Source: Streptomyces sp. NBC_00513 | Lineage (GTDB): Bacteria > Actinomycetota > Actinomycetes > Streptomycetales > Streptomycetaceae | Assembly (NCBI RefSeq): GCF_041431415.1 | Contig: NZ_CP107845.1 | Location: forward strand, 2,604,001-2,668,000 | Reading direction: 5' to 3' | DNA: 64,000 bases | Shown here: one piece after another, positions 1,717 to 63,767 of the stretch | Layout of the letters: each line of letters begins with the position of its first letter | Position numbering within the stretch: position 1 is the stretch's first letter | Translations under genes and position numbers: made by a program | Notes under the pieces: generated by a model | What the model was told of the DNA's origin: nothing | The model's database searches: none | The model's input: the letters and a program-made list of their open reading frames with translations, nothing else

Positions 1717-2406
1717 TCAGTTCCGGCCGGGGGGCCGGTTCCCGGCGGGGGCGAAGCGCACGCGTCCGCCGATCTCGACGGTGCCGTCCGGGCCGGGGGC
1801 GGTGAGGAGTTGGGAGCCGGCGCCCTGGGTGATGTTCAGCGCGCGGTTCAGTTGGGCGGTGAGCAGGATCGCCGCCGAGCCGGTGGCCTCGTCCTCGACG
1901 ACGACGCCGTCGGGGCGGCGCGGAAAGCCGCGGGCCCGGATCCGGCCCGCGGCCTCGTCCTCCCACGCCCACGCGTACAACCAGCCCTCGCCCGGCGGCG
2001 GGGCGGGCAGTTCCTCGACCTCGGCGGCGCAGGCGTACTGCTCGGTGCGCTTGCCCTCGACCCATTCGGGGCGGGCGGTGATCCAGGTGAACTCGCCGTC
2101 GTCGCGGGCCCAGACGGAGCCGACCGGCGGCTGGAGTTCCTCGATGTCGAGCAGCCAGGCGAGGCCGACCAGCGGGTGCCCGGCGAAGGCGAGCCGCGCG
2201 CCGGGGGTGCGGATGTCGACGACCCCGCGTTCGGGGTCGTCGACGAACACCGTCTCGCTGTAGCCGAGTTCGGCGGCCAGCGCCTGCCGGGACGCGTCAT
2301 CCGGGCAGGTGCGGCCGTCGCGGACGACTCCGAGCAGGTTGCCGTACCGGCCGTCGCCCGCGCAGAAGACCTTGAGCACGTCGAGATCGTTCACGCGGGC
2401 ATTCAA
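1717..2406 (-). CDS. PhzF-family isomerase-like protein
   Basis: Member of the PhzF/diaminopimelate-epimerase-like fold, a family of isomerases with mostly unknown substrates. Family landmarks are present in order: GYSETVFV (catalytic Glu region, near residue 50), FAGHPLVG (near residue 75) and VEDEATGSAA (near residue 175). At 229 residues it is shorter than the usual 260-290. It lies in the middle of the iron island, reading in the same direction as the HtaA gene whose stop codon is 7 bases from its start, so cotranscription with htaA is likely. The actual substrate cannot be inferred. Confidence 0.8.
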   Translation of the reverse strand: MNARVNDLDVLKVFCAGDGRYGNLLGVVRDGRTCPDDASRQALAAELGYSETVFVDDPERGVVDIRTPGARLAFAGHPLVGLAWLLDIEELQPPVGSVWARDDGEFTWITARPEWVEGKRTEQYACAAEVEELPAPPPGEGWLYAWAWEDEAAGRIRARGFPRRPDGVVVEDEATGSAAILLTAQLNRALNITQGAGSQLLTAPGPDGTVEIGGRVRFAPAGNRPPGRN

Positions 2407-2413
2407 GCATGGC

Positions 2414-3979: not shown

Positions 3980-4048
3980 GACTGAGTACTCCTGAAAGGG
4001 CAACGGGGGCGACGGGGGGTGTGGCGGGGTGCGGGCGAGGCGGGGGTG

Positions 4049-5476: not shown

Positions 5477-5502
5477 GACGGGCCCCTCCAGGGTCTGGCC
5501 AA

Positions 5503-5521
5503 TAAGGTTAGGCTAACCTAA
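5503..5521. promoter_or_regulatory. Iron box shared by divergent htaA and hmuT promoters
   Basis: TAAGGTTAGGCTAACCTAA matches the DtxR/IdeR/DmdR1 consensus at 18 of 19 positions, the best such site in the window. It is between the start of the minus-strand HtaA gene (5476) and the plus-strand hmuT gene, so one site could control both directions. Confidence 0.92.
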
Positions 5522-5532
5522 GCTACCTGCTG

Positions 5533-5552
5533 CCGGGGGGGGAACCCCCCGG
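5533..5552 (+). other. GC hairpin in the hmuT leader
   Basis: An 8-bp perfect stem CCGGGGGG / CCCCCCGG closes on a GGAA loop, between the iron box and hmuT. It ends only 11 bases before the upstream TTG candidate start (5564), which argues for the later GTG start of hmuT. It may merely stabilise the leader. Confidence 0.5.
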
Positions 5553-5611
5553 TCGCCAGAACTTTGAAGAACATTCAAGAACTCCAGTCGGACGATCAGG
5601 ACGGTGCCTTC

Positions 5612-6643
5612 GTGCCTACGCCCGCCGCGTCATCCCGCTTCCCCCGTCTCGCGTCCGTCGCGGCCTCGTTGGCCCTGGCACTCACCGCGCTGACGGGCTG
5701 CGGAGGTACGGCCACCCCTGCGGGCTCCCCCGCCCACACCGGCGCCGCGGCGGCCGCCCCCGACCGGGTGGAACCCCTCACCCCGTCACCGACGCCCGCC
5801 CTCCCGGTGACCGTGCCCTCGGCGGACGGCACATCGGTGACCATCGCCTCGGCGGACCGCGTGGTCCCGCTCACCGGCAGCCTCAACGAGATCGTCCACA
5901 CCCTGGGGCTCGGCGACCGGGTCGTCGCGCGGGACATCACCGCCACCTTCGAACAGGCCGCCAAGCTGCCGGTGGTGACACGGGCACACGACGTGTCGGC
6001 CGAGAGCGTGTTGTCGCTGCGTCCCACGCTGGTGATCGCCGAGACCACCACCGGACCCGCCGAGGCGATCGGGCAGATCCGCGACGCGGGCATCCCGCTG
6101 CTGGTCGTCGCCCCCGCCAAGACGCTGGACGACGTACGGAAGCGGATCGACACCGTCGCCGGCGCGCTCGGCGTCAAGGACGCCGGGACCCGGCTCAACG
6201 GGCGCACCGCCGACCGGATCGCCACCGCCCGCGAGGGCATCCCCGCCTCCGCGGCCGGCAAGAGGCCCCGGGTGGCCTTCCACTACCTGCGCGGCACCGC
6301 CTCCGTCTACCTGCTGGGCGGTTCCGACTCCGGCGCGGCCTCGCTGCTGGAGGCGGCCGGCGCCGTGGACACCGGCAAGGAGTCCGGGCTCGGCAAGGAC
6401 TTCACCCCGATCACCAGCGAGGCGCTGGCGGCGGCGGCGCCCGACGCGATCCTGGTGATGCGCAAGGGCCTGGAGTCCGTGGGCGGCGTGGACGGCCTGG
6501 TGAAGATCCCCGGTGTGGCCCAGACGCCGGCCGGCATGGACCGCCGCGTGGTCTCCGTCGACGACGGGGTGCTCCTCAACTACGGCCCCCGTACCGACCA
6601 GGTCCTCACCTCCCTGATCTCCCAGCTCTACGGCAAGGCCTGA
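5612..6643 (+). CDS. hmuT: Heme ABC transporter substrate-binding lipoprotein
   Basis: Extracytoplasmic lipoprotein that would receive heme from the HtaA proteins and deliver it to HmuUV. From GTG 5612 the product has 343 residues, with an Arg-containing n-region, a hydrophobic core and lipobox LTGC, then a class III periplasmic-binding (TroA/BtuF-like) body of two lobes. An alternative TTG at 5564 adds 16 acidic residues and sits against a hairpin, so it is less likely. hmuU begins two bases after the stop. Assignment to heme rather than siderophore rests on neighbours: HtaA genes, heme oxygenase and the iron box. Confidence 0.88.
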   Translation: MPTPAASSRFPRLASVAASLALALTALTGCGGTATPAGSPAHTGAAAAAPDRVEPLTPSPTPALPVTVPSADGTSVTIASADRVVPLTGSLNEIVHTLGLGDRVVARDITATFEQAAKLPVVTRAHDVSAESVLSLRPTLVIAETTTGPAEAIGQIRDAGIPLLVVAPAKTLDDVRKRIDTVAGALGVKDAGTRLNGRTADRIATAREGIPASAAGKRPRVAFHYLRGTASVYLLGGSDSGAASLLEAAGAVDTGKESGLGKDFTPITSEALAAAAPDAILVMRKGLESVGGVDGLVKIPGVAQTPAGMDRRVVSVDDGVLLNYGPRTDQVLTSLISQLYGKA

Positions 6644-6644
6644 T

Positions 6645-7778
6645 GTGACCGTCTCCCACGAGCCCCCGCGCGCGGGCGGCTCCTCGACGCCGACCGTGAC
6701 GCCCGCGACGCCCGCCGCGCCCGCCGCGCCCTTGAAGGGTCCTGCCCGCAGGCTGCCCACCGCCCTGATCCTGACCGTCGCCCTGGTCGTGACGCTGGTC
6801 GTGCTGGCGCTGGTCTCCGCGGGCGTGGGCGCGTACCGGATCCCCGTCGGGGACGTACTCGCCTCCGTGCAGCACCGCGTGGGCCTCGGCGGGGCCGCCC
6901 TCGACCGGGTCGGCGAGAGCGTGCTGTGGAACGTACGGCTGCCCCGCGTCGCGCTCGCCCTGCTGGTCGGCTCCAGTCTCGGCTGCGCCGGCGCCCTGAT
7001 GCAGGGGGTGTTCGGCAACCCGCTCGCCGAGCCGGGCGTCATCGGCATCTCGGCGGGCGCAGCCGTCGGCGCGGTCGCCGCGATCGGACTGGGTCTCACC
7101 TTCCTCGGGAACTGGACCGTCACCGCCTGCGCCTTCGTGGCGGGTCTGATCACGGTCGGCTCCGTGTACCTGCTGTCCCGCAACGGCGGCAGGACCGAGG
7201 TCGTCACGCTGATCCTGACCGGCATCGCCGTCAACGCCTTCGCGGGCGCCCTGATCGGCCTGTTCGTCTTCTTCGCGGACAGCGGCCAGGTCAACCAGAT
7301 CACCTTCTGGCAGCTCGGCTCCCTCGCCCAGGCCACCTGGCCCAAGGTGCTCGCCGTCCTGCCCTGCGCCCTCGCCGGCCTGCTCGTCGCCCCCTTCCAC
7401 GCCCGCAAGCTCGACCTGCTGTCCCTGGGCGAGCGACCGGCCCGGCACCTCGGCGTGGACGTGGAACGGCTGCGGCTGGCCCTGATCCTGGTCGTCGCGC
7501 TGCTGACCGCGGCGGCCGTGGCTGTGGCGGGCATCATCACCTTCGTCGGGCTGCTCGTCCCGCACCTGCTGCGGATGGCGAACGGCCCCGGTCACCGCTT
7601 CCTGGTCCCGGGCAGCGCCCTCGCCGGGGCCGTGGTCCTGGTCGCGGGCGACCTGGCCGCGCGGACGCTCGCGCAGCCCGCCGAACTGCCGTTGGGCGTG
7701 CTGACCGCGCTCATCGGCAGCCCGTTCTTCTTCTGGCTGTTGCGCCGGACCCGACGCAAGCAGGGAGGCTGGGCGTGA
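6645..7778 (+). CDS. hmuU: Heme ABC transporter permease (FecCD family)
   Basis: Inner-membrane permease, 377 residues, with a Pro/Ala-rich cytoplasmic N-terminus and about nine to ten predicted membrane helices. The family-diagnostic stretch GALMQGVFGNPLAEPG appears near residues 112-127, and the GLLVPHLLR segment near residue 305. The GTG start is one base after the hmuT stop, and its own stop overlaps the hmuV start (GTGA), indicating translational coupling in hmuTUV. Confidence 0.9.
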   Translation: MTVSHEPPRAGGSSTPTVTPATPAAPAAPLKGPARRLPTALILTVALVVTLVVLALVSAGVGAYRIPVGDVLASVQHRVGLGGAALDRVGESVLWNVRLPRVALALLVGSSLGCAGALMQGVFGNPLAEPGVIGISAGAAVGAVAAIGLGLTFLGNWTVTACAFVAGLITVGSVYLLSRNGGRTEVVTLILTGIAVNAFAGALIGLFVFFADSGQVNQITFWQLGSLAQATWPKVLAVLPCALAGLLVAPFHARKLDLLSLGERPARHLGVDVERLRLALILVVALLTAAAVAVAGIITFVGLLVPHLLRMANGPGHRFLVPGSALAGAVVLVAGDLAARTLAQPAELPLGVLTALIGSPFFFWLLRRTRRKQGGWA

Positions 7779-8602
7779 TCACCCTCTTCCGCCGGACCCG
7801 CCGGAGCATCCCCGTCCGGCCCGAGCCCGGCACGCCGTACGCCGAGGCCGTGGACCTGCACGTGCGTCTCGGGCAGCGCGAGGTGCTCGCCGGCATCGAC
7901 CTGACCGCCCGGGCCGGCGAGGTGCTGGCCCTGGTGGGACCGAACGGCGCGGGCAAGTCCACGCTGCTGGCCGCGCTCTGCGCCGACCTGCCGGCCGCGT
8001 CGGGGACCGTACGGATCGACGGGCGCCCGGTGGGTGACTGGTCGGCGCCCGATCTGGCCCTGCGCCGCTCGGTGCTCCCCCAGTCGGCCGCGCTGTCCTT
8101 CCCCTTCCCGGTGGAGGACGTCGTACGAATGGGCCGCGCGCCCTGGGCCGGCACCCCGCTGGAGGAGGACGACGAGGAGGCGGTGACCCGGGCCATGGCC
8201 GCGACCGAGGTGACCGACTTCGCGGGCCGCCCGTTCTCCGCGCTGTCCGGCGGCGAACGCGCCCGGGTCGCGCTCGCCCGGGTGCTGGCCCAACGGGCCC
8301 CGCTGCTACTGCTCGACGAGCCGACCGCCGCCCTGGACCTGCGCCACCAGGAGCTGGTGCTGCGGATCTGCCGGGAGCGGGCCGCGGCCGGGGACGCGGT
8401 GGTCGTCGTCCTGCACGACCTGGGCCTGGCGGCGGCGTACGCCGACCGGGTGGCGGTCCTGCACGACGGGCGGATCGCGGTGGACGGGCCGCCGTCCGAG
8501 GTGTTCGAGGACGGCCTGCTGAGCCGGGTCTACCGGCAGCCGGTGGAGGTGTTCCCGCACCCGCGCGGCGGGGCGCCGCTCGTGGTTCCGGTCCGCGGCT
8601 GA
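7775..8602 (+). CDS. hmuV: Heme ABC transporter ATP-binding protein
   Basis: 275-residue ATPase that powers HmuU. Walker A GPNGAGKST (near residue 56), signature LSGGERARV (near residue 158), Walker B LLLLDEPTAALDL and the switch histidine in VVLHDLG are all intact, so it should be active. The GTG at 7775 overlaps the hmuU stop by four bases. Length is typical for HmuV/FecE. Last gene of the heme importer operon. Confidence 0.9.
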   Translation: MITLFRRTRRSIPVRPEPGTPYAEAVDLHVRLGQREVLAGIDLTARAGEVLALVGPNGAGKSTLLAALCADLPAASGTVRIDGRPVGDWSAPDLALRRSVLPQSAALSFPFPVEDVVRMGRAPWAGTPLEEDDEEAVTRAMAATEVTDFAGRPFSALSGGERARVALARVLAQRAPLLLLDEPTAALDLRHQELVLRICRERAAAGDAVVVVLHDLGLAAAYADRVAVLHDGRIAVDGPPSEVFEDGLLSRVYRQPVEVFPHPRGGAPLVVPVRG

Positions 8603-8796
8603 GCCGCCTGCCCCGGCCTGTCGGTGATGATCACGGGCCGTGCGGCGGCCGGGCCGGCGCCTTCCGTCGCGCGGGACGCGAAGCCCCGCTTGACCCCGGC
8701 TTGACCCGGCCATGGGGTCGTCATGGAGGGGTCGTGACGGCCTCGTGTCCGGCGGTGGAAGGTGAGAGCTGTATCACTGGACTGTCGGGTATGAGT

Positions 8797-8829
8797 GAGG
8801 TAAGCCTCGGTTAAGTTAGGTCCGCCTCA
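8797..8829. promoter_or_regulatory. Iron-box region before efeO (one or two sites)
   Basis: The element at 8811-8829 begins TTAAGTTAGG and ends GCCTCA, matching about 13 of 19 consensus positions. Immediately upstream, GAGG-TAAG-CCTC (8797-8808) repeats the half-site spacing. Two overlapping weak boxes could bind two DmdR1 dimers. It ends 27 bases before the efeO start. Confidence 0.65.
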
Positions 8830-8856
8830 CCAGCCCTTACCTCGCCAGGAGCCTCC

Positions 8857-9996
8857 ATGCGACCCGCTCGCCTCACCGTTCTCGCCGCGGCCGCCGTCGT
8901 GGCCACGCTCACCGCCGTCACGGGCTGCGCGGAGAAGGGCGACGCCGGCGGCGACGGCGCGATCAAGGTCGCCGCCTCGGACAGCGCCTGTGAGGTCTCC
9001 AAGAAGGAGTTCCCCGCCGGCAAGATCACGGTCGACGTCGAGAACAAGGGCTCCAAGGTCACCGAGGTCTACGTCCTTTTCCCCGACGACCGGATCGTCG
9101 CCGAGCGCGAGAACATCGGCCCCGGCACCAAGGCCTCCATCACCGCCGAGATCAAGGCGGGCGACTACGAGATCGCCTGCAAGCCCGGCATGAAGGGTGA
9201 CGGCATCCGCCAGGCGGTCAAGGCCACCGGCGGCGGCGCCGTCGCCAAGCGCAGCCCGGAGATGGACGCCGCGGTCGCCGAGTACCGCAAGTACGTACAG
9301 GGGCAGGCCGACGAGACCCTCCCCAAGGCGCAGGCCTTCGCGGATGCGGTCAAGGCCGGCGACGTCGAGGCCGCGAAGAAGGCGTACGCCGTCTCGCGCA
9401 TCGGCTGGGAGCGCACCGAGCCCGTCGCCGAGTCCTTCGGCGACCTGGACCCGAAGGTCGACCTCCGCGAGGCCGACCTGGAGGCCAACCAGGAGTGGAC
9501 CGGCTGGCACACGCTGGAGAAGGCCGTGTTCAAGGACGGCAAGCTCGGCGAGCCGGAGAAGAAGCTCGCTGACACCCTGATGGCCGACCTCACCGTGTGG
9601 CAGAAGAAGGTCGGCACGGCCGAGATCACCCCGACCTCGATGGCGAACGGCGCCAAGGAGCTGCTGGACGAGGTCGCCACCGGCAAGGTGACGGGCGAGG
9701 AGGAGTTCTTCAGCCACACCGACCTGGTCGACTTCAAGGCCAACGTCGAGGGCGCGGAGAAGGCCTACCAGCTGCTGAAGCCGGTCGCCGCGAAGAACGA
9801 CCCGGAACTCGCGAAGACCCTGGACACCCGGTTCGCGGCGCTGAACACGCTGCTGGACAAGTACCGCGCCGACAAGACGGGCTACGACTTCGTCTCGTAC
9901 GACAAGGTCGGCGACGCGGAGCGCAAGGAGCTCTCGGACGCGGTCAACGCGCTGGCCGAGCCGCTCTCGAAGCTCGCCGCCTCGGTCGCGAAGTAA
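8857..9996 (+). CDS. efeO: Iron uptake protein EfeO (cupredoxin + imelysin/M75)
   Basis: Extracytoplasmic component of the EfeUOB system, proposed to bind Fe and deliver it to EfeU. The 379 residues carry a lipoprotein signal (TGC near residue 26), an N-terminal cupredoxin-like domain (about 35-125) and an imelysin-like M75 domain (about 140-379) with its HxxE motif in GWHTLEK. A GGAG-like site precedes the ATG. It is followed 35 bases later by efeB and then efeU, giving the order O-B-U. The iron box directly upstream suggests induction in iron starvation. Confidence 0.92.
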   Translation: MRPARLTVLAAAAVVATLTAVTGCAEKGDAGGDGAIKVAASDSACEVSKKEFPAGKITVDVENKGSKVTEVYVLFPDDRIVAERENIGPGTKASITAEIKAGDYEIACKPGMKGDGIRQAVKATGGGAVAKRSPEMDAAVAEYRKYVQGQADETLPKAQAFADAVKAGDVEAAKKAYAVSRIGWERTEPVAESFGDLDPKVDLREADLEANQEWTGWHTLEKAVFKDGKLGEPEKKLADTLMADLTVWQKKVGTAEITPTSMANGAKELLDEVATGKVTGEEEFFSHTDLVDFKANVEGAEKAYQLLKPVAAKNDPELAKTLDTRFAALNTLLDKYRADKTGYDFVSYDKVGDAERKELSDAVNALAEPLSKLAASVAK

Positions 9997-10031
9997 CCAG
10001 GGAGAACAGCGGAGCGGACGGGAGTACGAGG

Positions 10032-11363
10032 ATGGCGGAGTCGAAGTCCCAGCCGGCGGGAATGCCGGAGCCGCAGCCCGGCGACGGGCCGCGCGCCGAC
10101 GGCCCGGAGGCCGGCGCGCCGACCGGTGGCGGCCCCGCCGCGCCCTCGCGGCGCGCCGTGCTGGGCTGGGGCGGCGCCGGGCTGGCGCTCGGCGCCGCCG
10201 CGACCGGCGGTGCGGTGGCGGTGTTCGGCGGTGGCACGGACGTGGTGCCGGCCGCCTCCTCGGGGGCGGCCGTGCCCTTCCACGGCGAGCACCAGGCCGG
10301 GATCGCGACCGCCGTCCAGGACCGTCTGCACTTCGCCGCCTTCGACGTGACGACGAAGGACCGGGCCGAACTCGTCGCGCTCCTCAAGGAGTGGACGCGG
10401 GCGGCCCGGTTGATGACGGCCGGGCTGCCGGTCGGCGAGGGCGGTTTCGGCGGTCTGCCGGAGGCTCCGCCGGACGACACGGGCGAGGCGCTGGGCCTGA
10501 AGGCCTCGCGGCTCACCCTGACCGTCGGCTTCGGCCCGGGCCTCTTCGCGAAGGACCGCTTCGGCCTGGAGGGCAGGCGCCCGGCCGCCCTGGTGGACCT
10601 GGAGCTGTTCCCGGGCGACAACCTGGACGCGGCCCGCTCCGGCGGCGACCTGTGCGTCCAGGCGTGCGCCGACGATCCGCAGGTCGCGGTGCACGCCATT
10701 CGCCAGCTCGCCCGGATCGGCTTCGGCAGGATCGCGATGCGCTGGTCCCAGCTCGGCTTCGGCAAGACCTCCTCGACGACCCCGGACGCGCAGACCCCGC
10801 GCAACATGATGGGCTTCAAGGACGGCACCCGGAACGTCTCGGGCACGGACCGGGAGGCGTTGGAGAAGTTCGTCTGGGCGGGCCCCTCCGACGGCTCCGA
10901 CTGGATGGCCGGCGGCTCGTACCTGGTCGCCCGGCGCATCCGGATGCACATCGAGACCTGGGACCGCACCTCCCTGCGGGAGCAGGAGGACATCATCGGC
11001 CGCGACAAGGGCGAGGGCGCCCCCGTCGGCAAGTCCAAGGAGCGCGACGAGCCGTTCCTGAAGGCGATGAAGCCGGACGCGCACGTCCGCCTCGCGCACC
11101 CGGACACCAACGGCGGCGCGACGATCCTGCGCCGCGGCTACTCCTTCACGGACGGCACGGACGGGCTGGGCCGGCTCGACGCCGGACTGTTCTTCCTGGC
11201 GTACCAGCGGGACGTCCGCAAGGGGTTCGTGCCGATCCAGCGGGAGCTGGCCAGGAACGACTCGCTCAACGAATACATCCAGCACGTGGGTTCGGCCGTC
11301 TTCGCCGTCCCGCCGGGCGTCCGTGACAAGGACGACTGGTGGGGCCGGACGCTGTTCGCGTAG
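10032..11363 (+). CDS. efeB: Deferrochelatase/peroxidase EfeB (Dyp-type, Tat-exported)
   Basis: Dyp-type heme peroxidase of the Efe system, thought to oxidise Fe2+ for uptake by EfeU or to take iron from heme. The 443-residue product has a twin-arginine export signal (SRRAVLG, residues about 38-44, then a hydrophobic run), the GFKDGTRN Dyp motif with the catalytic Asp, and the C-terminal RGYSFTDGTD segment. The ATG at 10032 follows GGAGTACGAG. It lies between efeO and efeU in one transcription unit. Confidence 0.92.
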   Translation: MAESKSQPAGMPEPQPGDGPRADGPEAGAPTGGGPAAPSRRAVLGWGGAGLALGAAATGGAVAVFGGGTDVVPAASSGAAVPFHGEHQAGIATAVQDRLHFAAFDVTTKDRAELVALLKEWTRAARLMTAGLPVGEGGFGGLPEAPPDDTGEALGLKASRLTLTVGFGPGLFAKDRFGLEGRRPAALVDLELFPGDNLDAARSGGDLCVQACADDPQVAVHAIRQLARIGFGRIAMRWSQLGFGKTSSTTPDAQTPRNMMGFKDGTRNVSGTDREALEKFVWAGPSDGSDWMAGGSYLVARRIRMHIETWDRTSLREQEDIIGRDKGEGAPVGKSKERDEPFLKAMKPDAHVRLAHPDTNGGATILRRGYSFTDGTDGLGRLDAGLFFLAYQRDVRKGFVPIQRELARNDSLNEYIQHVGSAVFAVPPGVRDKDDWWGRTLFA

Positions 11364-11389
11364 TTCCCGTAGCGCGTAGGAGGATCCGC

Positions 11390-12277
11390 GTGTTCAGCAA
11401 TTATCTGATCGGTCTGCGCGAGGGGCTGGAAGCCAGTCTCGTCGTCTGCATTCTCATCGCCTACCTGGTGAAGACCGGGAACAAGGACAAGCTCGGGCCG
11501 CTGTGGCTCGGCGTGGGGCTGGCCGCCGGGCTGAGCCTGGCCTTCGGCGCGGGCCTGGAGTTCGGCACCCGCCAGTTGACGTTCGAGGCGCAGGAGGCGA
11601 TCGGCGGCTCCCTGTCGATCGTCGCCGTGGGCCTGGTGACGTGGATGGTCTTCTGGATGAAGCGCACCGCGCGGCACCTGAAGGCCGAGCTGCACGGGAA
11701 GTTGGACGCCGCCCTCGCGATGGGCACGGGCGCGCTGGTGGCCACCGCGTTCCTGGCCGTCGGCCGGGAGGGGCTGGAGACCTCGCTGTTCGTGTGGCGG
11801 TCGGTGAAGGCCGCCGGTGACGGCGCGGGCCCGCTGACCGGGGTGCTGCTCGGCATCGCGACGTCGATCCTGCTGGGCTGGCTGTTCTACCGGGGCGCGC
11901 TGCGCATCGATCTCGCGAAGTTCTTCAAGTGGACCGGCGGCCTGTTGGTCGTGGTCGCGGCGGGCGTGCTCGCGTACGGGGTCCACGACCTCCAGGAGGC
12001 GGACTTCCTGCCCGGACTGTCGAACAAGGCCTTCGACATCAGCGAGACGATCCCGCCGGACAGCTGGTACGGCACCCTGCTGAAGGGGACGTTCAACTTC
12101 CAGCCGGACCCGACGGTGTTCCAGCTCGTCGTGTGGGCGCTGTACCTGCTGGTCGTCCTGACCCTGTTCCTGGTCCCGGTGGGGTCCGGTCGGTCGTCTG
12201 CGCCGGTGCCCGCGAAGGCGGCGACGGCGGCGAAGGGGCGGGACGGCGACGACGCGGGCCGGCGGGCCCGGGACTGA
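11390..12277 (+). CDS. efeU: Iron permease EfeU (FTR1 family)
   Basis: Membrane ferric permease receiving iron oxidised by EfeB. Both REGLE motifs, required for iron passage in FTR1 proteins, are visible: LREGLEAS near residue 8 and GREGLETS near residue 125. About seven membrane helices, 295 residues. The GTG at 11390 is set by AGGAGG at 11378-11383 with a 6-base spacer; an in-frame candidate at 11339 would overlap efeB and add a charged leader. Last gene of the efeOBU operon; the next gene is convergent. Confidence 0.92.
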   Translation: MFSNYLIGLREGLEASLVVCILIAYLVKTGNKDKLGPLWLGVGLAAGLSLAFGAGLEFGTRQLTFEAQEAIGGSLSIVAVGLVTWMVFWMKRTARHLKAELHGKLDAALAMGTGALVATAFLAVGREGLETSLFVWRSVKAAGDGAGPLTGVLLGIATSILLGWLFYRGALRIDLAKFFKWTGGLLVVVAAGVLAYGVHDLQEADFLPGLSNKAFDISETIPPDSWYGTLLKGTFNFQPDPTVFQLVVWALYLLVVLTLFLVPVGSGRSSAPVPAKAATAAKGRDGDDAGRRARD

Positions 12278-25008: not shown

Positions 25009-25418
25009 GCAGAACGACACAAGCGGGCGGCCGCGTCGGGATCCTCGGATCCCGCCGAGGAACGTCCGGGCTCCACAGGGCAGGGTGGTGGCTAACGGCC
25101 ACCCGGGGTGACCCGCGGGACAGTGCCACAGAAAACAGACCGCCGGGGACCTCGGTCCTCGGTAAGGGTGAAACGGTGGTGTAAGAGACCACCAGCGCCT
25201 GAGGTGACTCAGGCGGCTAGGTAAACCCCACCCGGAGCAAGGTCAAGAGGAGTCGTCTCCGGACGGCTCTGCGCGGACGATCGAGGGCTGCCCGCCCGAG
25301 TCCGCGGGTAGACCGCACGAGGCCGGCGGCAACGCCGGTCCTAGATGGATGGCCGTCTCCCCGGCGACCGCGAGGTCACCGGGCGACAGAACCCGGCGTA
25401 CAGCTTGTGTCGTTCTGC
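25009..25418 (+). ncRNA. rnpB: RNase P RNA, class A
   Basis: Catalytic RNA that matures tRNA 5' ends with the RnpA protein. Conserved cores are present: GAGGAACGTCCGGGCTCC near 25060 and GAAACGG near 25169; the 3' conserved segment ACAGAACCCGGCGTACAG is near 25386. The 5' strand 25009-25024 and the 3' strand 25403-25418 are perfectly complementary over 16 bp, forming helix P1 and fixing the ends. Length 410 nt is typical of Streptomyces. Confidence 0.95.
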
Positions 25419-56115: not shown

Positions 56116-56287
56116 GTTCCAGGAGTCCACGGTCAGGACGGAACGGCGGAGAAGATCCAACGGACATCCGACGGGTAGCCAGAAACCCGAAGAGATGGTC
56201 GACTTGGGCGACTACTGGAACAAGTTCTCTTTATCGTGTGCGGGCGGACGCACGACCGCCCGGACAGCCGGCAGACAGGGAGCCCTC

Positions 56288-57328
56288 GTGACACCTCAGG
56301 TCACCGACCACGGCGGAGGCGTGTGGGGCGTCAAGGTCCCCATCCCCGACAACCCCCTCGGACACACCCTCGTCCACGTCCTCGACACCGACCGCGGCCC
56401 GGTCCTCGTCGACACCGGCTGGGACGACCCGGAGTCCTGGGACACCCTCGTCGCCGGCCTCGACGCCCTCGGCATCGCGATGGCCGACGTCCACGGCGTG
56501 GTCATCACCCACCACCACCCCGACCACCACGGCCTGTCCGGCCGGGTCCGGGAGGCATCGGGCGCCTGGATCGCCATGCACGCCGCCGACACCGAGGTCG
56601 TCGTGCGGACCCGCTCCGCCGAACCGGGCGTCTGGTTCGACTACATGAGCGAGAAACTGGCCGTCGCCGGGGCCCCCGAGGAGCACATCGCCCCCCTGCG
56701 GGCGGCCCGCGCGAGCGGCCGACTGCGGACCCTGCCCGGCCTGCACGCGGCCGTCCCCGACCGGGAGATCGTCCCCGGCGAACTGCTGCCCCTCGCCGGG
56801 CGGCGGCTGCGCGCCATCTGGACGCCGGGCCACACCCCCGGCCACGTCTGCCTCCACCTGGAGGAGGCCCATCCCGCGGGCCTGCCCGGCAACGGCCGGC
56901 TGTTCTCGGGCGACCACCTCCTCCCCGGCATCTCCCCGCACATCGGCCTGTACGAGGACCCCTCCGAGCACCGGGTCACCGACCCCCTCGGCGACTACCT
57001 CGACTCCCTCGAACGCGTCGGCCGGCTGGAGCCCGCCGAGGTCCTCCCGGCCCACCAGCACCCCTTCACCGACGCCCCGGCCCGCGTGCGCGAACTCCTG
57101 GACCACCACGAGGAACGGCTGACCGGGCTCTGGGGGCTCCTCGCCACCCCCCTGACCCCGTGGGAGCTGGCGGAGCGGATGGAGTGGAACCGCCCCTGGG
57201 AGCAGATCCCGTACGGCTCCCGGAACATCGCCGTCTCCGAGGCGGAGGCGCATCTGCGGCGGCTGGTGAAGCAGGGCCGGGCGGAGCCGGTACCGGGCAG
57301 CGACCCGGTGACGTACCGGGCCCTGTGA
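56288..57328 (+). CDS. MBL-fold metallo-hydrolase
   Basis: 346 residues. Metal motif THHHPDHHG near residue 75, later GHTPGH near 182, SGDH near 215, and H in PAHQHPF near 255. A winged-helix-like C-terminal domain follows (LRRLVKQG). GTG 56288 has GGGAG 5 bases upstream; a GTG-less longer form from 56195 would add 31 residues with no homology. Glyoxalase-II or lactonase-like, substrate unknown. Possibly shares the region with the divergent aldehyde dehydrogenase gene. Confidence 0.85.
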   Translation: MTPQVTDHGGGVWGVKVPIPDNPLGHTLVHVLDTDRGPVLVDTGWDDPESWDTLVAGLDALGIAMADVHGVVITHHHPDHHGLSGRVREASGAWIAMHAADTEVVVRTRSAEPGVWFDYMSEKLAVAGAPEEHIAPLRAARASGRLRTLPGLHAAVPDREIVPGELLPLAGRRLRAIWTPGHTPGHVCLHLEEAHPAGLPGNGRLFSGDHLLPGISPHIGLYEDPSEHRVTDPLGDYLDSLERVGRLEPAEVLPAHQHPFTDAPARVRELLDHHEERLTGLWGLLATPLTPWELAERMEWNRPWEQIPYGSRNIAVSEAEAHLRRLVKQGRAEPVPGSDPVTYRAL

Positions 57329-57429: not shown

Positions 57430-57560
57430 GGCCGGTAGAGTGGGCCCGTCGTCCACACTTCCGTACGGGGGGAAGCCGGTGCGAATCCGGCGCTGACCCG
57501 CAACCGTGACCCACCCCCGCGACATCGGGGCGGGGAGCCGGAATGCCCTGTACCGGAGGT
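57430..57560 (+). ncRNA. Adenosylcobalamin riboswitch
   Basis: The B12-aptamer core is clear: GGAAGCCGGTGCGAATCCGG then GCTGACCCGCAACCGTGA (about 57471-57509), and GAGCCGGAATGCC (about 57535-57547). CCGGTA near 57432 can pair with TACCGG near 57551 to close P1. A separate hairpin CCGCCGG/CCGGCGG (57573-57591) follows and may be the expression platform. The downstream gene starts at 57679. B12 is expected to switch off the operon. Confidence 0.92.
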
Positions 57561-57678
57561 GCGCGGCTCGTGCCGCCGGGTCTTCCGGCGGCCGGCACCG
57601 TCGAGGTAAACGGAGCCGGAGCCCGGTACCCGCGCGTGCCTGCCTCCGTTCCCCAGCACGAGAGGCACCCGCCCCACC

Positions 57679-58929
57679 ATGAACGTACGACGCAGCGCCG
57701 CCGCGCTCGCCGCCTCCGCCGTGCTCTGCGCGGGTGCCGCCCCCGCGGCCCTCGCCGCGCCCTCCCCCTCCCCGGCGCCGGTCGTCCCCTCGGGACTGTT
57801 CGGCAAGGGCGACCCGACGTACGACGGCGTGTGGCGCCAGTCGTTCGCCCTGCTCGCCCAGCGGACCGTCGGCGAGCAGCCGGCCGCGCAGGCCGTGGAC
57901 TGGCTCGTCGGCCAGCAGTGCGCCGACGGCGGGTTCGCCTCCTTCCGCGCCGACGCCTCGAAGGCCTGCGACGCGAAGACCGTGCTCGACACCAACGCCA
58001 CCGCGGTGGCCGTGCAGGCCCTCAAGGCGCTCGGCGGCCACGACGCGGCGGTGAAGAAGGGCGTCGACTGGCTGAAGTCCGTCCAGAACGAGGACGGCGG
58101 CTGGGCCTACGTCCCCGGCTCCCCCAGCGAGGGCAGCTCCACCTCGGTCGTCATCAGCGCGCTGGCCGTGGCGGGCGAGAAGCCCGCCGACGTGAAGTCG
58201 AAGGCGGGCAAGTCCGCGTACGACGGCCTGCTCTCCTTCCAGCTGGGCTGCTCCGCCGAGCCGGCCGCCGACCGGGGCGCCTTCGGGTACCAGCCGGCCG
58301 ACGGCAAGCTCGCGGCGAACGCCGACGCGACCGCCGCCGCGACGCTGGCCGCGCTCGGCAAGGGCGCGCTCGTCGCCCCGGCCGCCGCGGACACCCCGGC
58401 CGCCGCGCTCGCCTGCCCGGCGACCGCCGGCGACCCGACGGCCGCCGCCCAGGGCGCGGCCGGGAACCTCGCCGAGGCCCTGAAGAAGGACGGCCACCTC
58501 ACCGCCGTCACCCCGGGCGCCGACCAGCCCACCCCGGACACCGGCAACACCGCCGACGCGGTGATCGCCCTGGCCGCGGCCGGCCACAAGCAGTCGGCGG
58601 CCGGCGCGCTGGAGTGGCTGAAGGCCAACTCCGCCGAGTGGTCCAAGGGCAACCCGGCGGCCCTGGGCACGCTGATCCTCACCGCGCACGCCACGGGCAC
58701 CGACCCGAAGGCCTTCGGGTCCACCGACCTGGTCGCCGCGCTGAACGCGACGGGCCCGGCGCCGCGGTCGGCGACCCCGAAGGCGCAGGCCTCCGAGGAC
58801 GCCGACAAGAAGAAGGACGACGAGGGCTCCGGCAACGGGAACCTCTGGTGGATCATCGGCGCGGGCGCCGCGGCCGGCATGGGCATCGGCATCCTGCTGA
58901 GCGGCCGCCGGAAGAAGAACCAGATCTGA
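57679..58929 (+). CDS. Secreted, membrane-anchored alpha/alpha-barrel protein (B12-binding candidate)
   Basis: 416 residues: signal peptide ending ALAA near 29, then helical repeats of the squalene/prenyltransferase type, with DWLVGQQCADGGFASF near 75, DWLKSVQNEDGGWAYV near 135, and ADAVIALAAAGHKQSAA near 295. A linker rich in Ala/Lys leads to a C-terminal helix (NLWWIIGAGAAAGMGIGILL) and GRRKKN. Same fold class as the helical barrel of transcobalamin and intrinsic factor. Under B12-riboswitch control and coupled to an ECF transporter, so a surface B12 receptor is proposed; binding is not shown. Confidence 0.78.
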   Translation: MNVRRSAAALAASAVLCAGAAPAALAAPSPSPAPVVPSGLFGKGDPTYDGVWRQSFALLAQRTVGEQPAAQAVDWLVGQQCADGGFASFRADASKACDAKTVLDTNATAVAVQALKALGGHDAAVKKGVDWLKSVQNEDGGWAYVPGSPSEGSSTSVVISALAVAGEKPADVKSKAGKSAYDGLLSFQLGCSAEPAADRGAFGYQPADGKLAANADATAAATLAALGKGALVAPAAADTPAAALACPATAGDPTAAAQGAAGNLAEALKKDGHLTAVTPGADQPTPDTGNTADAVIALAAAGHKQSAAGALEWLKANSAEWSKGNPAALGTLILTAHATGTDPKAFGSTDLVAALNATGPAPRSATPKAQASEDADKKKDDEGSGNGNLWWIIGAGAAAGMGIGILLSGRRKKNQI

Positions 58930-59630
58930 TGCGCGGGCTGCCCGCTCGCCGGTTCCCGGCCCTCGCCCTCGCCTTCGGCGTCCTCCTCGTGCTGTTCGCC
59001 TCCGCCCCGGCGATGGCGTCGAGCTACCGCTACTGGTCGTTCTGGGACGGCGGTGCGAACGGTTCCTGGTCGTACGCCACCCAGGGCCCCTCGACGGCGC
59101 GCCCGGCGGACGGCTCGGTGCAGGGGTTCCGCTTCGGCGTGAGCAAGGACGCCGGGGACCAGTCCGGGCGGCCGCGCGCCGACGCCGACTTCGAGGCCGT
59201 CTGCTCCGCGACGCCCGCGGAGCAGGGCCGCAAGCGAGTGGCCCTCGTCATCGACTTCGGGCTCCCCGCGGAGGCCCCTTCGGGCGAGACCCCGCCCGGG
59301 GACGCGCCGCGCACGGCCTGCGCCCGGGTGGCGCCGGACGCCACTTCGGCGGAGGCTCTGGCGGCGGTCGCGAAGCCGCTGCGCTACAACAGCGCCGCGC
59401 TGCTGTGCGGGATCTCGGGGTACCCGCGGCAGGGCTGCGGCGAACCGATCGCCGACGGCGCCGGGCAGCGGCCGTCGGCGTCCCCTTCCTCCCCGTCGTC
59501 CCCGTCCGCGTCCTCGGCGTCGTCCTCGGGCGGGTCCGGCGGGCCCTCGGCGGGGCTCGTCGTGGGCGTCGTGGCGGTGGCCGCGCTGGCCGCGGCCGGC
59601 GTCTGGCAGTCCCGCCGCCGCGCCCGATGA
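58929..59630 (+). CDS. SCO2322-family surface protein
   Basis: 233 residues: signal peptide (MRGLPARRFPALALAFGVLL, then ASAPAMA near 30), a beta-rich domain with YRYWSFWDGG near 36, SWSYATQGPST and RPADGSVQGFRF, Pro/Ser linker (about 180-205), and a C-terminal helix with RRRAR. Its ATG overlaps the barrel-protein stop (TGATG). Annotated in relatives only as SCO2322 family. It may be the beta-domain partner of the barrel protein, as in the two-domain transcobalamins; this is inference. Confidence 0.75.
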   Translation: MRGLPARRFPALALAFGVLLVLFASAPAMASSYRYWSFWDGGANGSWSYATQGPSTARPADGSVQGFRFGVSKDAGDQSGRPRADADFEAVCSATPAEQGRKRVALVIDFGLPAEAPSGETPPGDAPRTACARVAPDATSAEALAAVAKPLRYNSAALLCGISGYPRQGCGEPIADGAGQRPSASPSSPSSPSASSASSSGGSGGPSAGLVVGVVAVAALAAAGVWQSRRRAR

Positions 59631-60946
59631 CGGAGCCGGCGCGCGGGCCCGGTACGGCGTCGGGCACCGGATCCGGCGTCACGCCCGCTTCCGTGTCCGG
59701 GACGGGGTCCGGCGCGGTGTCCGGGACGGGGCCCGTCGACGGGTCGGGGACCACCCACGGCGCGGCGGTCGGCGACGTGACACCGCCCCGGCGGAGCCGC
59801 CTCGCGGCGGCGAAGACCGACCCGCACGGGCCCGTGTACAAGAAGAGGCCGCACCTGGCCCCCGAGGCGCGTCGCGGGAACGCCCTGCACGCGGGGGCCT
59901 GGTGGCTGTGGGCGCTCGGGCTGGCCACGGCCGCCTCCCGGACGACCAATCCCCTCCTCCTCGGCCTGATCGTCGGCGTCGCCGGCTACGTGGTCGCCGC
60001 CCGCCGGACCTCGGCGCCGTGGGCGCGTTCGTACGGGGCGTTCGTCAAGCTCGGCCTGTTCGTCATCGGCCTGCGCCTGGTCTTCTCCATGCTGCTCGGC
60101 TCCCCGCTGCCCGGCTCGCACACCCTCTTCACCCTGCCGGAGGTTCCCCTGCCGGCCTGGGCGCAGGGCATCCGCTTCGGCGGCAGGGTGACCGCCGAGC
60201 AGCTGGTCTTCGCCTTCTACGACGGCGCGAAGCTGGCCACCCTCCTCATCTGCGTGGGCGCCGCCAACGCCCTCGCCAATCCGGCCCGGCTGCTGAAGTC
60301 CCTGCCGGCCGCCCTGTACGAGGCGGGGGTCGCCGTGGTCGTCGCCATGACGTTCGCGCCGAACATGGTCGCGGACGTGGTGCGGTTGCGGACCGCCCGC
60401 CGGCTGCGCGGACGCCCCACCGGCGGCGTCAAGGCCGTCCTCCAGATCGGTCTGCCGGTCCTGGAGGGCGCGCTGGAGCGTTCGGTGGCGGTGGCCGCCT
60501 CGATGGACGCGCGCGGGTACGGGCGCACGGCGCGGGTTCCGCCCGCGGTCCGGCACACCACCAACGCGCTCACCCTCGGCGGGCTCCTCGGCATGTGCGC
60601 GGGCACGTACGGGTTGCTCGCGGCGGAGGGCGCCGCGTTCGGCCTGCCCCTGCTCATCGTCGGGCTGGCACTGGCCCTGGCGGGCCTGCGCCTGGGCGGC
60701 CGGCGCAGCGTCCGCACCCGCTACCGGCCCGACCGCTGGGGCCTTCGGGCCTGGCTGGTCGCCGGGTCGGGGGCGGCGGTCGCGGCCCTGTTGATCTACG
60801 CGGGCACCCGGGACCCGGAGGCCCTGCGCCCGGGGGTCGTGCCCCTGGTCGCGCCCACCCTCCCGCTGTGGCCGGCGGCCGCGATCCTCATCGGCCTGCT
60901 TCCCGCCTTCGTGGCACCCGTTCCGCCGAAGGAGGCGTCGCAGTGA
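59627..60946 (+). CDS. ECF-transporter T component (CbiQ family)
   Basis: 439 residues. After a Gly/Thr-rich N-terminal segment (about 1-60) come several membrane helices (LLLGLIVGVAGYVVAA, LGLFVIGLRLVF). The T-component coupling motif is present: MDARGYGRTAR near residue 290, where the ARG motif contacts the ATPase. ATGA overlap with the upstream gene. An additional hydrophobic C-terminal region (about 385-435) is longer than usual. Confidence 0.88.
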   Translation: MTEPARGPGTASGTGSGVTPASVSGTGSGAVSGTGPVDGSGTTHGAAVGDVTPPRRSRLAAAKTDPHGPVYKKRPHLAPEARRGNALHAGAWWLWALGLATAASRTTNPLLLGLIVGVAGYVVAARRTSAPWARSYGAFVKLGLFVIGLRLVFSMLLGSPLPGSHTLFTLPEVPLPAWAQGIRFGGRVTAEQLVFAFYDGAKLATLLICVGAANALANPARLLKSLPAALYEAGVAVVVAMTFAPNMVADVVRLRTARRLRGRPTGGVKAVLQIGLPVLEGALERSVAVAASMDARGYGRTARVPPAVRHTTNALTLGGLLGMCAGTYGLLAAEGAAFGLPLLIVGLALALAGLRLGGRRSVRTRYRPDRWGLRAWLVAGSGAAVAALLIYAGTRDPEALRPGVVPLVAPTLPLWPAAAILIGLLPAFVAPVPPKEASQ

Positions 60947-62814
60947 TCCGTTTCGAGCAGGTGTCGGTGACCTACGAGGGAGCCGCCGGACCGGCGCTGC
61001 GCGGCGCGGACTTCGTCGTGCCGGAAGGGGAGTTGACCTTGCTGGTCGGCCCGTCGGGTGTCGGCAAGTCGACTCTTCTGGGGGCGGTCTGCGGGCTGGT
61101 CCCGCACTTCACGGGCGGCCGGTTGAGCGGCCGGGTCACGGTCGCGGGGCGCGACACCCGTACGCACAAGCCGCGCGAGCTCGCCGACGTGGTGGGCACG
61201 GTCGGCCAGGATCCGATGGCCCACTTCGTGACGGACGTGGTGGAGGACGAGCTGGCCTACGGCATGGAGTCGCTGGGGCTCCCGCCCGCGGTGATGCGCC
61301 GCCGGGTCGAGGAGACCCTCGACCTGCTGGGCCTCAACGAACTCCGCGACCGCCCCATCGCCACCCTCTCCGGCGGGCAGCAACAGCGGGTCGCGATCGG
61401 CTCCGTGCTGACCCCGCACCCGCGCGTGCTGGTCCTGGACGAACCCACCTCGGCGCTGGACCCGGCGGCGGCCGAGGAGGTCCTGGCGGTGCTCCAGCGG
61501 CTGGTGCACGACCTGGGCACCACGGTGCTCATGGCGGAACACCGCCTGGAGCGGGTGGTCCAGTACGCGGACCGGGTACTGCTCCTGCCGTCGCCGGGAG
61601 CGGCCCCGGTCATGGGGAGCCCGGCGGAGATCATGGCGATCTCCCCGGTGCACCCCCCGGTGATCTCCCTGGGCCGGCTCGCGGGCTGGTCCCCGCTGCC
61701 CCTGTCGGTCCGCGACGCACGCCGTCTGGCAGGCCCCCTGCGGTCCCGCCTTCCGCAGGACGCGGGGGCGGACCCGGCCCCGGCGGTGTTCGAGGCGTTC
61801 GAGGCGTTCGAGGCGGGGGTGCGGGCGCCGTCCGAACCCGCGAAGGTGCCGGGTTCGGCGGGCCGCCCCGAGGGTCCCGGCCGGCTGGCCCGGCTGCTGC
61901 GCCGCACCCCGCCCGCGCGCACCGGCGGTGCGGGTGTCGGCGTCGACGCCACGGCGGGCACGGTCGCGGCCACGGCCGCGGGCGTGTCCGTGCGTCGGGG
62001 TCGGGCCGAGGTCCTGCACGGGATCGACCTCACGATCGCCCCCGGCGAGACCGTCGCCCTCATGGGCCGCAACGGCGCCGGCAAGTCCACCCTGCTCGCG
62101 ACCCTCGTCGGCACGATCGAACCGACCACCGGCAAGGTGCTCGTCGGCGGTCGCACCCCGCACCGCACCCCGCCTCGGGAGATGGTCCGCCACGTCGGGC
62201 TCGTCCCGCAGGACCCCCGGGACCTCCTCTACGCCGACACGGTCGCCGCCGAGTGCGCCGCCGCCGACTCCGACGCGGGCGCGGCACCGGGCACCTGCCG
62301 GGCCCTGGTGACGGCCCTGCTGCCGGACGTGCCCGACGACACCCACCCCCGGGACCTCTCCGAGGGGCAGCGTCTCGCGCTCGCCCTGGCCCTGGTCCTG
62401 ACCGGCGAGCCGGCCCTGTTGCTGCTCGACGAGCCCACCCGCGGCCTGGACTACGCCGCCAAGGCCCGACTGATCGGGATCCTGCGGGCTCTCGCCGCGT
62501 CGGGGCACGCCGTCGTCCTGGCCACGCACGACGTGGAACTCGCCGCCGAGCTGGCGCACCGGGTGGTGATCCTGGCCGGCGGGGAGATCGTCGCGGACGG
62601 CCCTACGGCCGAGGTGGTGGTCTCCTCCCCCGCCTTCGCCCCGCAGGTGGCCAAGATCCTGGCGCCGGGGCGGTGGCTCACGGTGTCGCAGGTCGCGCGG
62701 GCCCTCTCCGGTGACTCGGGTGGCTCCGGTGGCGCCGGTGGCGCCGGGGACTCGGGTGGCTCCGGGGACTCCGGTGGCGCCGCCGACGGCACGGCCGGGG
62801 GGCTCGCCCCGTGA
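60943..62814 (+). CDS. ECF-transporter A1-A2 fused ATPase
   Basis: 623 residues with two ABC ATPase domains. Domain one: GPSGVGKST near 32, LSGGQQQRV near 142, LVLDEPTSALD near 164. Domain two: GRNGAGKST near 375, signature LSEGQRLAL near 471 (degenerate, E for G) and LLLDEPTRGLD near 492. A variable middle region joins them. The Gly/Ser-rich tail is low complexity. GTGA overlaps both flanking genes. Confidence 0.9.
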   Translation: MIRFEQVSVTYEGAAGPALRGADFVVPEGELTLLVGPSGVGKSTLLGAVCGLVPHFTGGRLSGRVTVAGRDTRTHKPRELADVVGTVGQDPMAHFVTDVVEDELAYGMESLGLPPAVMRRRVEETLDLLGLNELRDRPIATLSGGQQQRVAIGSVLTPHPRVLVLDEPTSALDPAAAEEVLAVLQRLVHDLGTTVLMAEHRLERVVQYADRVLLLPSPGAAPVMGSPAEIMAISPVHPPVISLGRLAGWSPLPLSVRDARRLAGPLRSRLPQDAGADPAPAVFEAFEAFEAGVRAPSEPAKVPGSAGRPEGPGRLARLLRRTPPARTGGAGVGVDATAGTVAATAAGVSVRRGRAEVLHGIDLTIAPGETVALMGRNGAGKSTLLATLVGTIEPTTGKVLVGGRTPHRTPPREMVRHVGLVPQDPRDLLYADTVAAECAAADSDAGAAPGTCRALVTALLPDVPDDTHPRDLSEGQRLALALALVLTGEPALLLLDEPTRGLDYAAKARLIGILRALAASGHAVVLATHDVELAAELAHRVVILAGGEIVADGPTAEVVVSSPAFAPQVAKILAPGRWLTVSQVARALSGDSGGSGGAGGAGDSGGSGDSGGAADGTAGGLAP

Positions 62815-63767
62815 GCACCACGCGCACCCCCCGCACCGCCGACCCGGCTGATCCGACCGGCCCGGCAGGCCCGGCAGGCCCGGCAGGCCCGGCAGGCCCG
62901 GCAGGCCCGGCAGGCCCAGTCGACCCGGCCGGCCCCGTCGACGGCACCACCCGTACCGCCCGTTCCGCCCGTCCCGTCCGCATCGGCCCCCGCGCCGCCG
63001 TCGCGCTGGTCCTGGTCACCCTGATCGGCATCGTCGCGTTCGGCTGGCCGCTGCTCGCGGACCGGCAGTCGGGGCTGGCCCACTCCCAGGACGCGCCGTG
63101 GCTCTTCGCGGCGCTGCTGCCCCTCCTCGTCGCGGTCGTCGTGGCGACGATCGCCGACAACGGCATGGACGCCAAGGCCGTCGCGATGCTCGGCGTGCTG
63201 GCCGCCGTCGGTGCGGCGCTCAGACCGTTGGGCGCGGGTACGGCGGGCCTGGAGCCCATGTTCTTCCTGATGGTGTTGAGCGGCCGGGTGCTGGGGCCGG
63301 GCTTCGGCTTCGTCCTGGGTTCGGTGACGATGTTCGCGTCCGCCCTGCTCACGGGCGGGGTCGGGCCGTGGATGCCGTTCCAGATGCTGGCGTTGGGGTG
63401 GTTCTCGCTGGGGGCGGGTCTGCTGCCCGGTCCGGACCGCATCCGGGGGCGGGTGGAGCTGGGCATGCTCGCGGCGTACGGGTTCGTGGGGTCGTTCGCG
63501 TACGGCACGATCATGAACCTCCAGGGGTGGGTGATCCTCCAGGGCATGGGGCAGGGCGTCTCCTTCCACCCGGGGGACCCGCTGCCGGAGAACCTGGCGC
63601 GGTTCGTCGCGTACTGCCTGGCGACCTCGTTGGGCTGGGACCTGGGGCGGGCGGCGCTGACCGTCGTACTGACCCTCACCCTCGGCGCCACCCTGCTGAA
63701 GGCCCTGCGGCGGGCGACACGCAAAGCCGCCTTCGATACCCCGATTTCCTTTGATTCGGGGGTTTAG
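62811..63767 (+). CDS. ECF-transporter S component (probable cobalamin)
   Basis: 318 residues. A collagen-like N-terminus (GPA repeats, residues about 17-35) precedes about six membrane helices (GPRAAVALVLVTLIGIVAFG, LLVAVVVATIADNGMDAKAV, LGMLAAYGFVGSFAYG). A conserved loop FGFVLGSVTMFASALLTGGVGPWMP, divided here around LTGGVGPW, is typical of S components. GTG 62811 overlaps the ATPase stop. The riboswitch argues for cobalamin or precursor as substrate. Confidence 0.85.
   Translation: MSTTRTPRTADPADPTGPAGPAGPAGPAGPAGPAGPVDPAGPVDGTTRTARSARPVRIGPRAAVALVLVTLIGIVAFGWPLLADRQSGLAHSQDAPWLFAALLPLLVAVVVATIADNGMDAKAVAMLGVLAAVGAALRPLGAGTAGLEPMFFLMVLSGRVLGPGFGFVLGSVTMFASALLTGGVGPWMPFQMLALGWFSLGAGLLPGPDRIRGRVELGMLAAYGFVGSFAYGTIMNLQGWVILQGMGQGVSFHPGDPLPENLARFVAYCLATSLGWDLGRAALTVVLTLTLGATLLKALRRATRKAAFDTPISFDSGV
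62859..62912. repeat. Six perfect 9-bp repeats encoding GPA
   Basis: GGCCCGGCA repeats six times head to tail in frame, giving six Gly-Pro-Ala triplets near the S-component N-terminus. Likely variable by slippage. Confidence 0.9.

Follow-up and report, generated by a model that had tools for sequence, protein, structure and literature searches.

A cobalamin riboswitch-associated operon of Streptomyces sp. NBC_00513 proposed to couple a split, transcobalamin-like surface clamp to an ECF transporter

Proteins that combine a toroid with a transcobalamin-type beta-grasp (SLBB) domain, encoded in CbiO/CbiQ operons of low-GC Gram-positive bacteria, have been predicted to scavenge vitamin B12 (Burroughs et al. 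2007, PMC1796856; this paper and PMC5997447, PMC5301498 and PMC3766115 are cited from excerpts throughout). Import by an energy-coupling factor (ECF) transporter is described for ECF-CbrT of Lactobacillus delbrueckii, which carries cobalamin and cobinamide (PMC5997447), and an ECF module under cobalamin or adenosylcobalamin (AdoCbl) riboswitches has been suggested as cobalamin transporter of acI actinobacteria that lack B12 synthesis (PMC5301498). Here, we describe an operon of Streptomyces sp. NBC_00513 at positions 57430 to 63767 of a 64,000-nucleotide stretch (G000:C1:2604001-2668000 within the 8.6 Mb genome; hereafter the window). Behind a cobalamin riboswitch, it encodes a barrel protein of the SCO2321 family, a beta protein of the SCO2322 family, and the T, A1A2 and S components of an ECF module. 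The operon probably specifies a corrinoid importer in which a split-transcobalamin clamp at the cell surface would feed the ECF transporter.

Like the proteins of Burroughs et al., the locus brings together secreted toroid and beta-grasp-like parts, an operon with an ECF-type ATP-binding cassette motor, and a predicted role in B12 scavenging. Unlike them, it places the two parts on separate, anchored chains, has a permuted beta part and belongs to actinobacterial hosts. The proposed division into toroid and beta-grasp parts clamping B12 is also that of animal transcobalamin and intrinsic factor as set out in PMC1796856; in contrast to animal transcobalamin, there are two chains here, the beta part is permuted, and no significant sequence match exists. 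Since B12 scavengers built from a toroid and a beta-grasp part, and encoded next to CbiO/CbiQ, had already been predicted in 2007, the general design is known, and the initial annotation of this DNA went too far in calling a Gram-positive receptor of this type poorly described. The text of PMC1796856 does not mention 'Streptomyces' or 'permutation', and 'actinobacteria' occurs in it once, on ComEA. The locus resembles ECF-CbrT as an ECF-type importer and the acI module in that both are ECF modules of actinobacteria placed behind cobalamin riboswitches. The excerpts on ECF-CbrT do not mention extra surface binding proteins and those on the acI module mention neither surface binding proteins nor permutation, unlike what is found here, and the S profile gave no match at E ≤ 10 among PDB chains, including solved CbrT.

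The window proteins belong to the NCBIfam families SCO2321_fam (NF053823) and SCO2322_fam (NF040672) and to Pfam PF28005, whose names carry no stated function. Our literature search gave no paper about them, and 'SCO2322 family', 'SCO2321 family', PF28005, NF040672 and GPS-CTERM went unmentioned in it. Within this search, SCO2321-SCO2325 are named only in a paper on a transdermal peptide, and nothing was found that describes a version with split or permuted parts or assigns SCO2321/SCO2322 a function; among the papers found for 'transcobalamin-like' and similar terms, Burroughs et al. is, by title and abstract, the one on bacteria. What is new here may be a split, circularly permuted variant of the toroid plus beta-grasp design for B12 scavenging, in actinobacteria.

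Operon layout, conserved gene order and riboswitch

All features of the operon lie on the forward strand. The 5' leader with the riboswitch (57430..57678) precedes the barrel gene (57679..58929), whose product carries a signal peptide, an alpha/alpha toroid, a C-terminal transmembrane helix and a basic tail. The SCO2322-family protein (58929..59630) consists of a signal peptide, a permuted beta-grasp-like domain, a Pro/Ser-rich linker and a C-terminal transmembrane helix. These are followed by an EcfT-like transmembrane protein (59627..60946), a fused EcfA1-EcfA2 ATPase with two ABC_tran domains (60943..62814; 188.7 bits), and the S component (62811..63767). The barrel and SCO2322 genes overlap by 1 base, the remaining pairs by 4 bases. 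T matches CbiQ with 17.9 bits, under the 25-bit cut-off, S matches ECF_trnsprt with 29.6 bits (cut-off 30.7), and the ATPase scores 284.3 bits against TIGR04520 (cut-off 315). In a paralogous operon of the same genome, described below, T is a CbiQ protein at 44.3 bits and matches the T of this operon at 328 bits, while the paralogous S scores 30.7 bits against ECF_trnsprt. The S family alignment of 31 rows has a mean column identity of 53%. With EcfA ATPases, EcfT and S encoded together, the module represents an ECF transporter that has a dedicated S component. The initial annotation had read five overlapping genes for barrel, SCO2322-type protein, T, A1A2 and S, and both coordinates and order agree with the open reading frame (ORF) positions and family matches; its assignment of an ECF module is borne out by the adjacent, overlapping T, A1A2 and S genes and the two ABC_tran domains, with T and S scoring under the Pfam cut-offs. 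A collagen-like Gly-Pro-Ala repeat opens the S component at its N-terminus (window positions 62855-62920).

The locus was compared with three sets of loci: 30 same-genus loci from an SCO2321 search (the window's own included), 52 other loci from the barrel search, and 80 loci from a search with S components. The 52 stand for 52 of 63 non-genus genomes with a barrel match; the 80 are the best of 564 found via S components of loci of the canonical type defined below, and their proportions are no survey. All five genes occur together in 45 of the 52 divergent actinobacterial loci, and the order barrel-beta-T-A-S holds in each of the 44 loci in which none of the pieces falls below 30 bits. Two of the seven loci without the full set (L054, L058) stop at a contig edge. 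L070 and L081 hold barrel and beta genes with CobU/CobT nearby, and no ECF module is present in the stretch covered, which suggests that the pair is used there with an unlinked transporter.

The cobalamin aptamer initially annotated upstream of the five genes is recovered by RF00174 at 57471-57539 (+), with 31.1 bits and an E-value of 4.1e-6 in a 601-base search; the match spans the conserved aptamer core (model positions 47-167 of 189). A whole-window scan at the gathering threshold omitted the riboswitch because this score falls below the curated cut-off of 31.5 bits. Orthologous leaders of the genus score up to 40.9 bits with RF00174, several of them above the cut-off, and a cobalamin or AdoCbl-II Rfam match at E ≤ 0.05 is present in 19 of the 30 same-genus loci. 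Using a core pattern composed after the leaders had been inspected, we observed a riboswitch core within 600 bases upstream of the barrel match in 117 of 140 loci (own locus excluded, three loci with short upstream sequence dropped), namely in 24/29 same-genus, 48/51 other barrel-search and 45/60 S-search loci. The background of this pattern is 91 of 2800 random windows from the same loci and 0 of 1400 shuffled leaders. The only two same-genus genomes without a match to CobJ, a corrin-ring enzyme (L032/G246 and L044/G213), are both among the five core-less loci of the genus, as if the core had been lost where B12 cannot be made. At L036, the flanks of the barrel-gene leader look familiar by eye and the aptamer core is gone, which suggests a decayed riboswitch. 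At L064 (G082:C1:671000-687000), five cobalamin riboswitch matches (E ≤ 0.05, one of them under the cut-off) are found in 16 kb, around several barrel and beta genes.

The predicted toroid and the circularly permuted beta domain

The barrel protein is a member of SCO2321_fam (563 bits, cut-off 300), with its closest named relatives in Streptomyces, and is found in 30 of the 31 same-genus genomes searched. Structure prediction of the 57679-58929 product, the check proposed at the outset, yields a confident alpha/alpha toroid (AlphaFold, predicted local distance difference test, pLDDT, 93), the first of the two domains of the transcobalamin family. The second, the beta-domain, is absent from this chain; toroid and beta part are encoded by separate genes in the window, and a chain with both is encoded in the paralogous operon of the same genome.

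The SCO2322 protein scores 213 bits against SCO2322_fam (cut-off 85), and its domain is modelled by AlphaFold with a pLDDT of 95.2 and a predicted template modelling score of 0.90. Judged by its sequence, it looks secreted and membrane-anchored; of the homologues listed, 118 of 120 have a signal-like start and all 120 a C-terminal hydrophobic segment. The C-terminus (window positions 59541-59624) gives a weak match to the GPS-CTERM sorting signal, at 22.4 bits against a cut-off of 28.

SCO2322-type domains exist in two circularly permuted forms. The first sign of this was that profile matches in other actinobacteria split into two pieces whose order was swapped. In the canonical form, half A (VTVVVDF...C...FICRI.G.P...C) is followed by half B (AYWSYW...W.Y...G...GW.F); in the permuted form, B precedes A. 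Half-profiles place half B of the window domain, beginning SSYRYWSFW and C-terminal in the unpermuted form, at 59019..59150 (+), and half A, with RVALVIDFG and LLCGISGYP and N-terminal in the unpermuted form, at 59226..59447 (+). By the same half-profiles, all 30 same-genus loci are permuted, while the 52 other barrel-search loci comprise 31 permuted, 18 canonical, one with half B only and two with neither half. Among the 80 S-search loci, 60 are canonical (two with extra single halves), 6 permuted, one has half B only and 13 have none.

When 20 canonical domains were aligned with 59 permuted ones, hhalign scored 88.8 over 50 columns in native order and 167.2 over 112 columns (E 1.7e-28) after rotation; with 111 canonical domains, the scores were 89.3 and 154. 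A canonical hidden Markov model (HMM) gave the window domain 38.0 bits unrotated and 74.2 bits rotated, and the median of the 59 rows rose from 34.8 to 70.2. In the controls, canonical against canonical scored 190 native and 96-147 rotated, and permuted against permuted 306 native and 164-246 rotated. In the reverse test, rotating canonical sequences by fixed offsets did not raise their median score with the permuted HMM. Three loci (L061, L090, L091) have the canonical order, yet their wording is near the permuted type by eye.

On a tree of T plus S with 112 loci, from which those without a sufficiently long T or S or without one clear type were omitted, the two forms require 3 changes, against a shuffled mean of 30. 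A single origin of the permutation was considered and set aside, as well-supported branches force at least 2 changes; on this tree, one event with later reversals or transfers is indistinguishable from a small number of independent events. Among the Streptomyces records of the S-search set, L177 and L186 are permuted, L172 and L190 canonical, and L130, L153, L166 and L187 unclassified. L172 and L190 have lower-scoring barrels and probably represent the paralogous operon.

In the SCO2322 model, the elements follow one another as expected for a rotation of the order S1-S2-H-insert-S3-S4-S5 of transcobalamin-type beta-grasp domains (PMC1949818). The missing beta half of the barrel is most likely the neighbouring SCO2322 protein, as a beta-grasp-like, permuted domain. 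Several comparisons weigh against such a kinship: PF01122 (transcobalamin) gave no match to the barrel at E ≤ 1, none of the sequence comparisons of barrel or beta protein with transcobalamin was significant, and the profile comparison of the SCO2322 domain with DUF4430 stayed below significance. The SCO2322 domain likewise gave no VIA match. One relative, at L064, reaches 10.8 bits with PF01122, under the cut-off of 25. Of the initial description of the barrel as a transcobalamin-like receptor, the alpha/alpha-barrel surface protein stands; in sequence, the barrel alone does not resemble transcobalamin, and it has no beta-domain of its own.

Corrinoid link, proposed mechanism and competing explanations

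CobU and CobT act in nucleotide-loop assembly. Among loci with sufficient sequence (8 shorter ones were dropped), 24 of 40 from the barrel search and 6 of 77 from the S search carry a CobT and/or CobU match of at least 90 bits in the 3 kb downstream of S, as do 0 of 58 canonical-type S-search loci; a Pfam check of downstream proteins agreed for CobT in 6/6 and for CobU in 2/2 tested. Outside the genus, 10 of 63 genomes with a barrel have CobJ, compared with 123 of 202 genomes that lack the barrel (Fisher p 1.7e-10, uncorrected for relatedness); of 40 genomes from 14 families with a barrel of at least 100 bits, 1 has CobJ. Within the genus, CobJ is present in 29 and the barrel in 30 of 31 genomes; therefore, the barrel system would there be a salvage route beside synthesis. 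As CobJ is present, the window's genome probably makes B12. The connection to corrinoids drawn in the initial annotation is upheld by the riboswitches across the class, the CobU/CobT genes beside some of the loci and the rarity of CobJ in non-genus carriers, and corrinoid import as such is strongly supported.

We postulate that a falling level of coenzyme B12 would release the riboswitch, allowing the five translationally coupled genes to be expressed. Barrel (SCO2321) and beta protein (SCO2322), presumably secreted and membrane-anchored, would each contribute one jaw to a split transcobalamin and hold cobalamin, or a different corrinoid such as cobinamide, between them in a joint binding site at the cell surface. 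From the jaws, the corrinoid would be handed to the S component, and the T-A1A2 motor would drive import. In the window operon, its orthologues and several other actinobacterial lineages, the protein proposed as beta jaw is circularly permuted. This split-transcobalamin mechanism is moderately supported. On balance, we lean narrowly towards the wider proposal that actinobacteria commonly use a split, anchored transcobalamin clamp with a dedicated ECF transporter, its beta jaw being permuted in the main Streptomyces operon and in several lineages.

B12 uptake is poorly understood in actinobacteria, which include abundant B12 producers and consumers. If the proposal is correct, it would describe an ECF transporter whose extracellular receptor has two parts and whose ligand-binding beta-grasp is permuted, put a name to a conserved receptor and give a function to two protein families for which none is stated. 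The transcobalamin design would then be modular in bacteria, and the two beta forms a natural circular-permutant pair of one presumed ligand-binding domain.

Alternatively, the ECF module alone might import the corrinoid, with barrel and beta proteins as surface accessories in wall adhesion, protection or capture of another partner that bind no corrinoid. To this we assign a small but appreciable chance: ECF-CbrT carries cobalamin and cobinamide with an S component described as substrate-binding protein (PMC5997447), and the lack of a sequence match of barrel and beta protein to transcobalamin would agree with it. However, the barrel and beta genes come first in the operon and are retained with the ECF genes in the divergent loci counted above, L070 and L081 keep the pair where no ECF module is seen, and the window's genome has further barrel and DUF4430 proteins behind cobalamin riboswitches of their own. 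A little less probable again is that the cargo is not complete cobalamin but either cobalt or a precursor or piece of a corrinoid, namely cobinamide, alpha-ribazole or a lower-ligand base. CobU and CobT downstream in part of the loci would suit a precursor, and cobalt transporters are likewise under cobalamin riboswitches (PMC3766115). Against this reading, the S component resembles PF12822, with a score just under that family's cut-off, and no cobalt-type (CbiM) family is among those listed for it; a metal ion or a small base would be an unexpected cargo for a system with two large extracellular proteins, and cobinamide as cargo would still suit a general corrinoid clamp.

The closest solved folds to the barrel among the matches listed are squalene-hopene cyclase-type toroids. 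That the barrel is itself a squalene-hopene cyclase- or glycosidase-type enzyme modifying a surface lipid or glycan seems very improbable, as the cyclase acid motif DxDD[TS]A, and with it the signature of class II terpene cyclases, occurs in 0 of 70 aligned barrels. The window protein has DTNATA at a similar place, and the D at the third motif position is N in 57 and D in 13 of the 70. The barrel is, moreover, secreted and adjoins a vitamin-type importer and a riboswitch.

Related genes in the genome and minor observations

Four of the 11 cobalamin riboswitch candidates in the window's own genome (E < 1e-4) precede toroid or beta-domain genes, the operon described above being one of the four cases. 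The paralogous riboswitch-barrel/beta-T-A-S operon is located at about 6.61-6.62 Mb (L046, G000:C1:6610000-6629500, about 2096-11514 including the next gene). Its first protein comprises 935 residues and joins a beta domain to barrel repeats in one chain; the beta type is canonical by pattern, and the half-profiles detect half B only. A divergent barrel plus DUF4430-like protein of 511 residues is encoded in the L046 region behind its own riboswitch, and its true start is probably later, because the listed ORF starts inside the aptamer match. A lone DUF4430 protein follows a cobalamin riboswitch at 6.632-6.633 Mb. In two further genomes of the genus (G076, G213), a DUF4430 protein stands directly after a barrel paralogue; at L108 (G226), the protein directly after a DUF4430 protein is a small membrane protein with a by-eye resemblance to an ECF S component.

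L152, a metagenome record titled Acidimicrobiia bacterium, has matches to barrel, canonical beta domain, T, A and S. If this record is clean, the system may reach beyond the actinobacterial class. In the window itself, the gene upstream of the operon on the same strand (56195-57328) belongs to the Strvi_7410 MBL-fold family (674 bits), and a bacterial class A RNase P RNA gene is found at 25015-25416.

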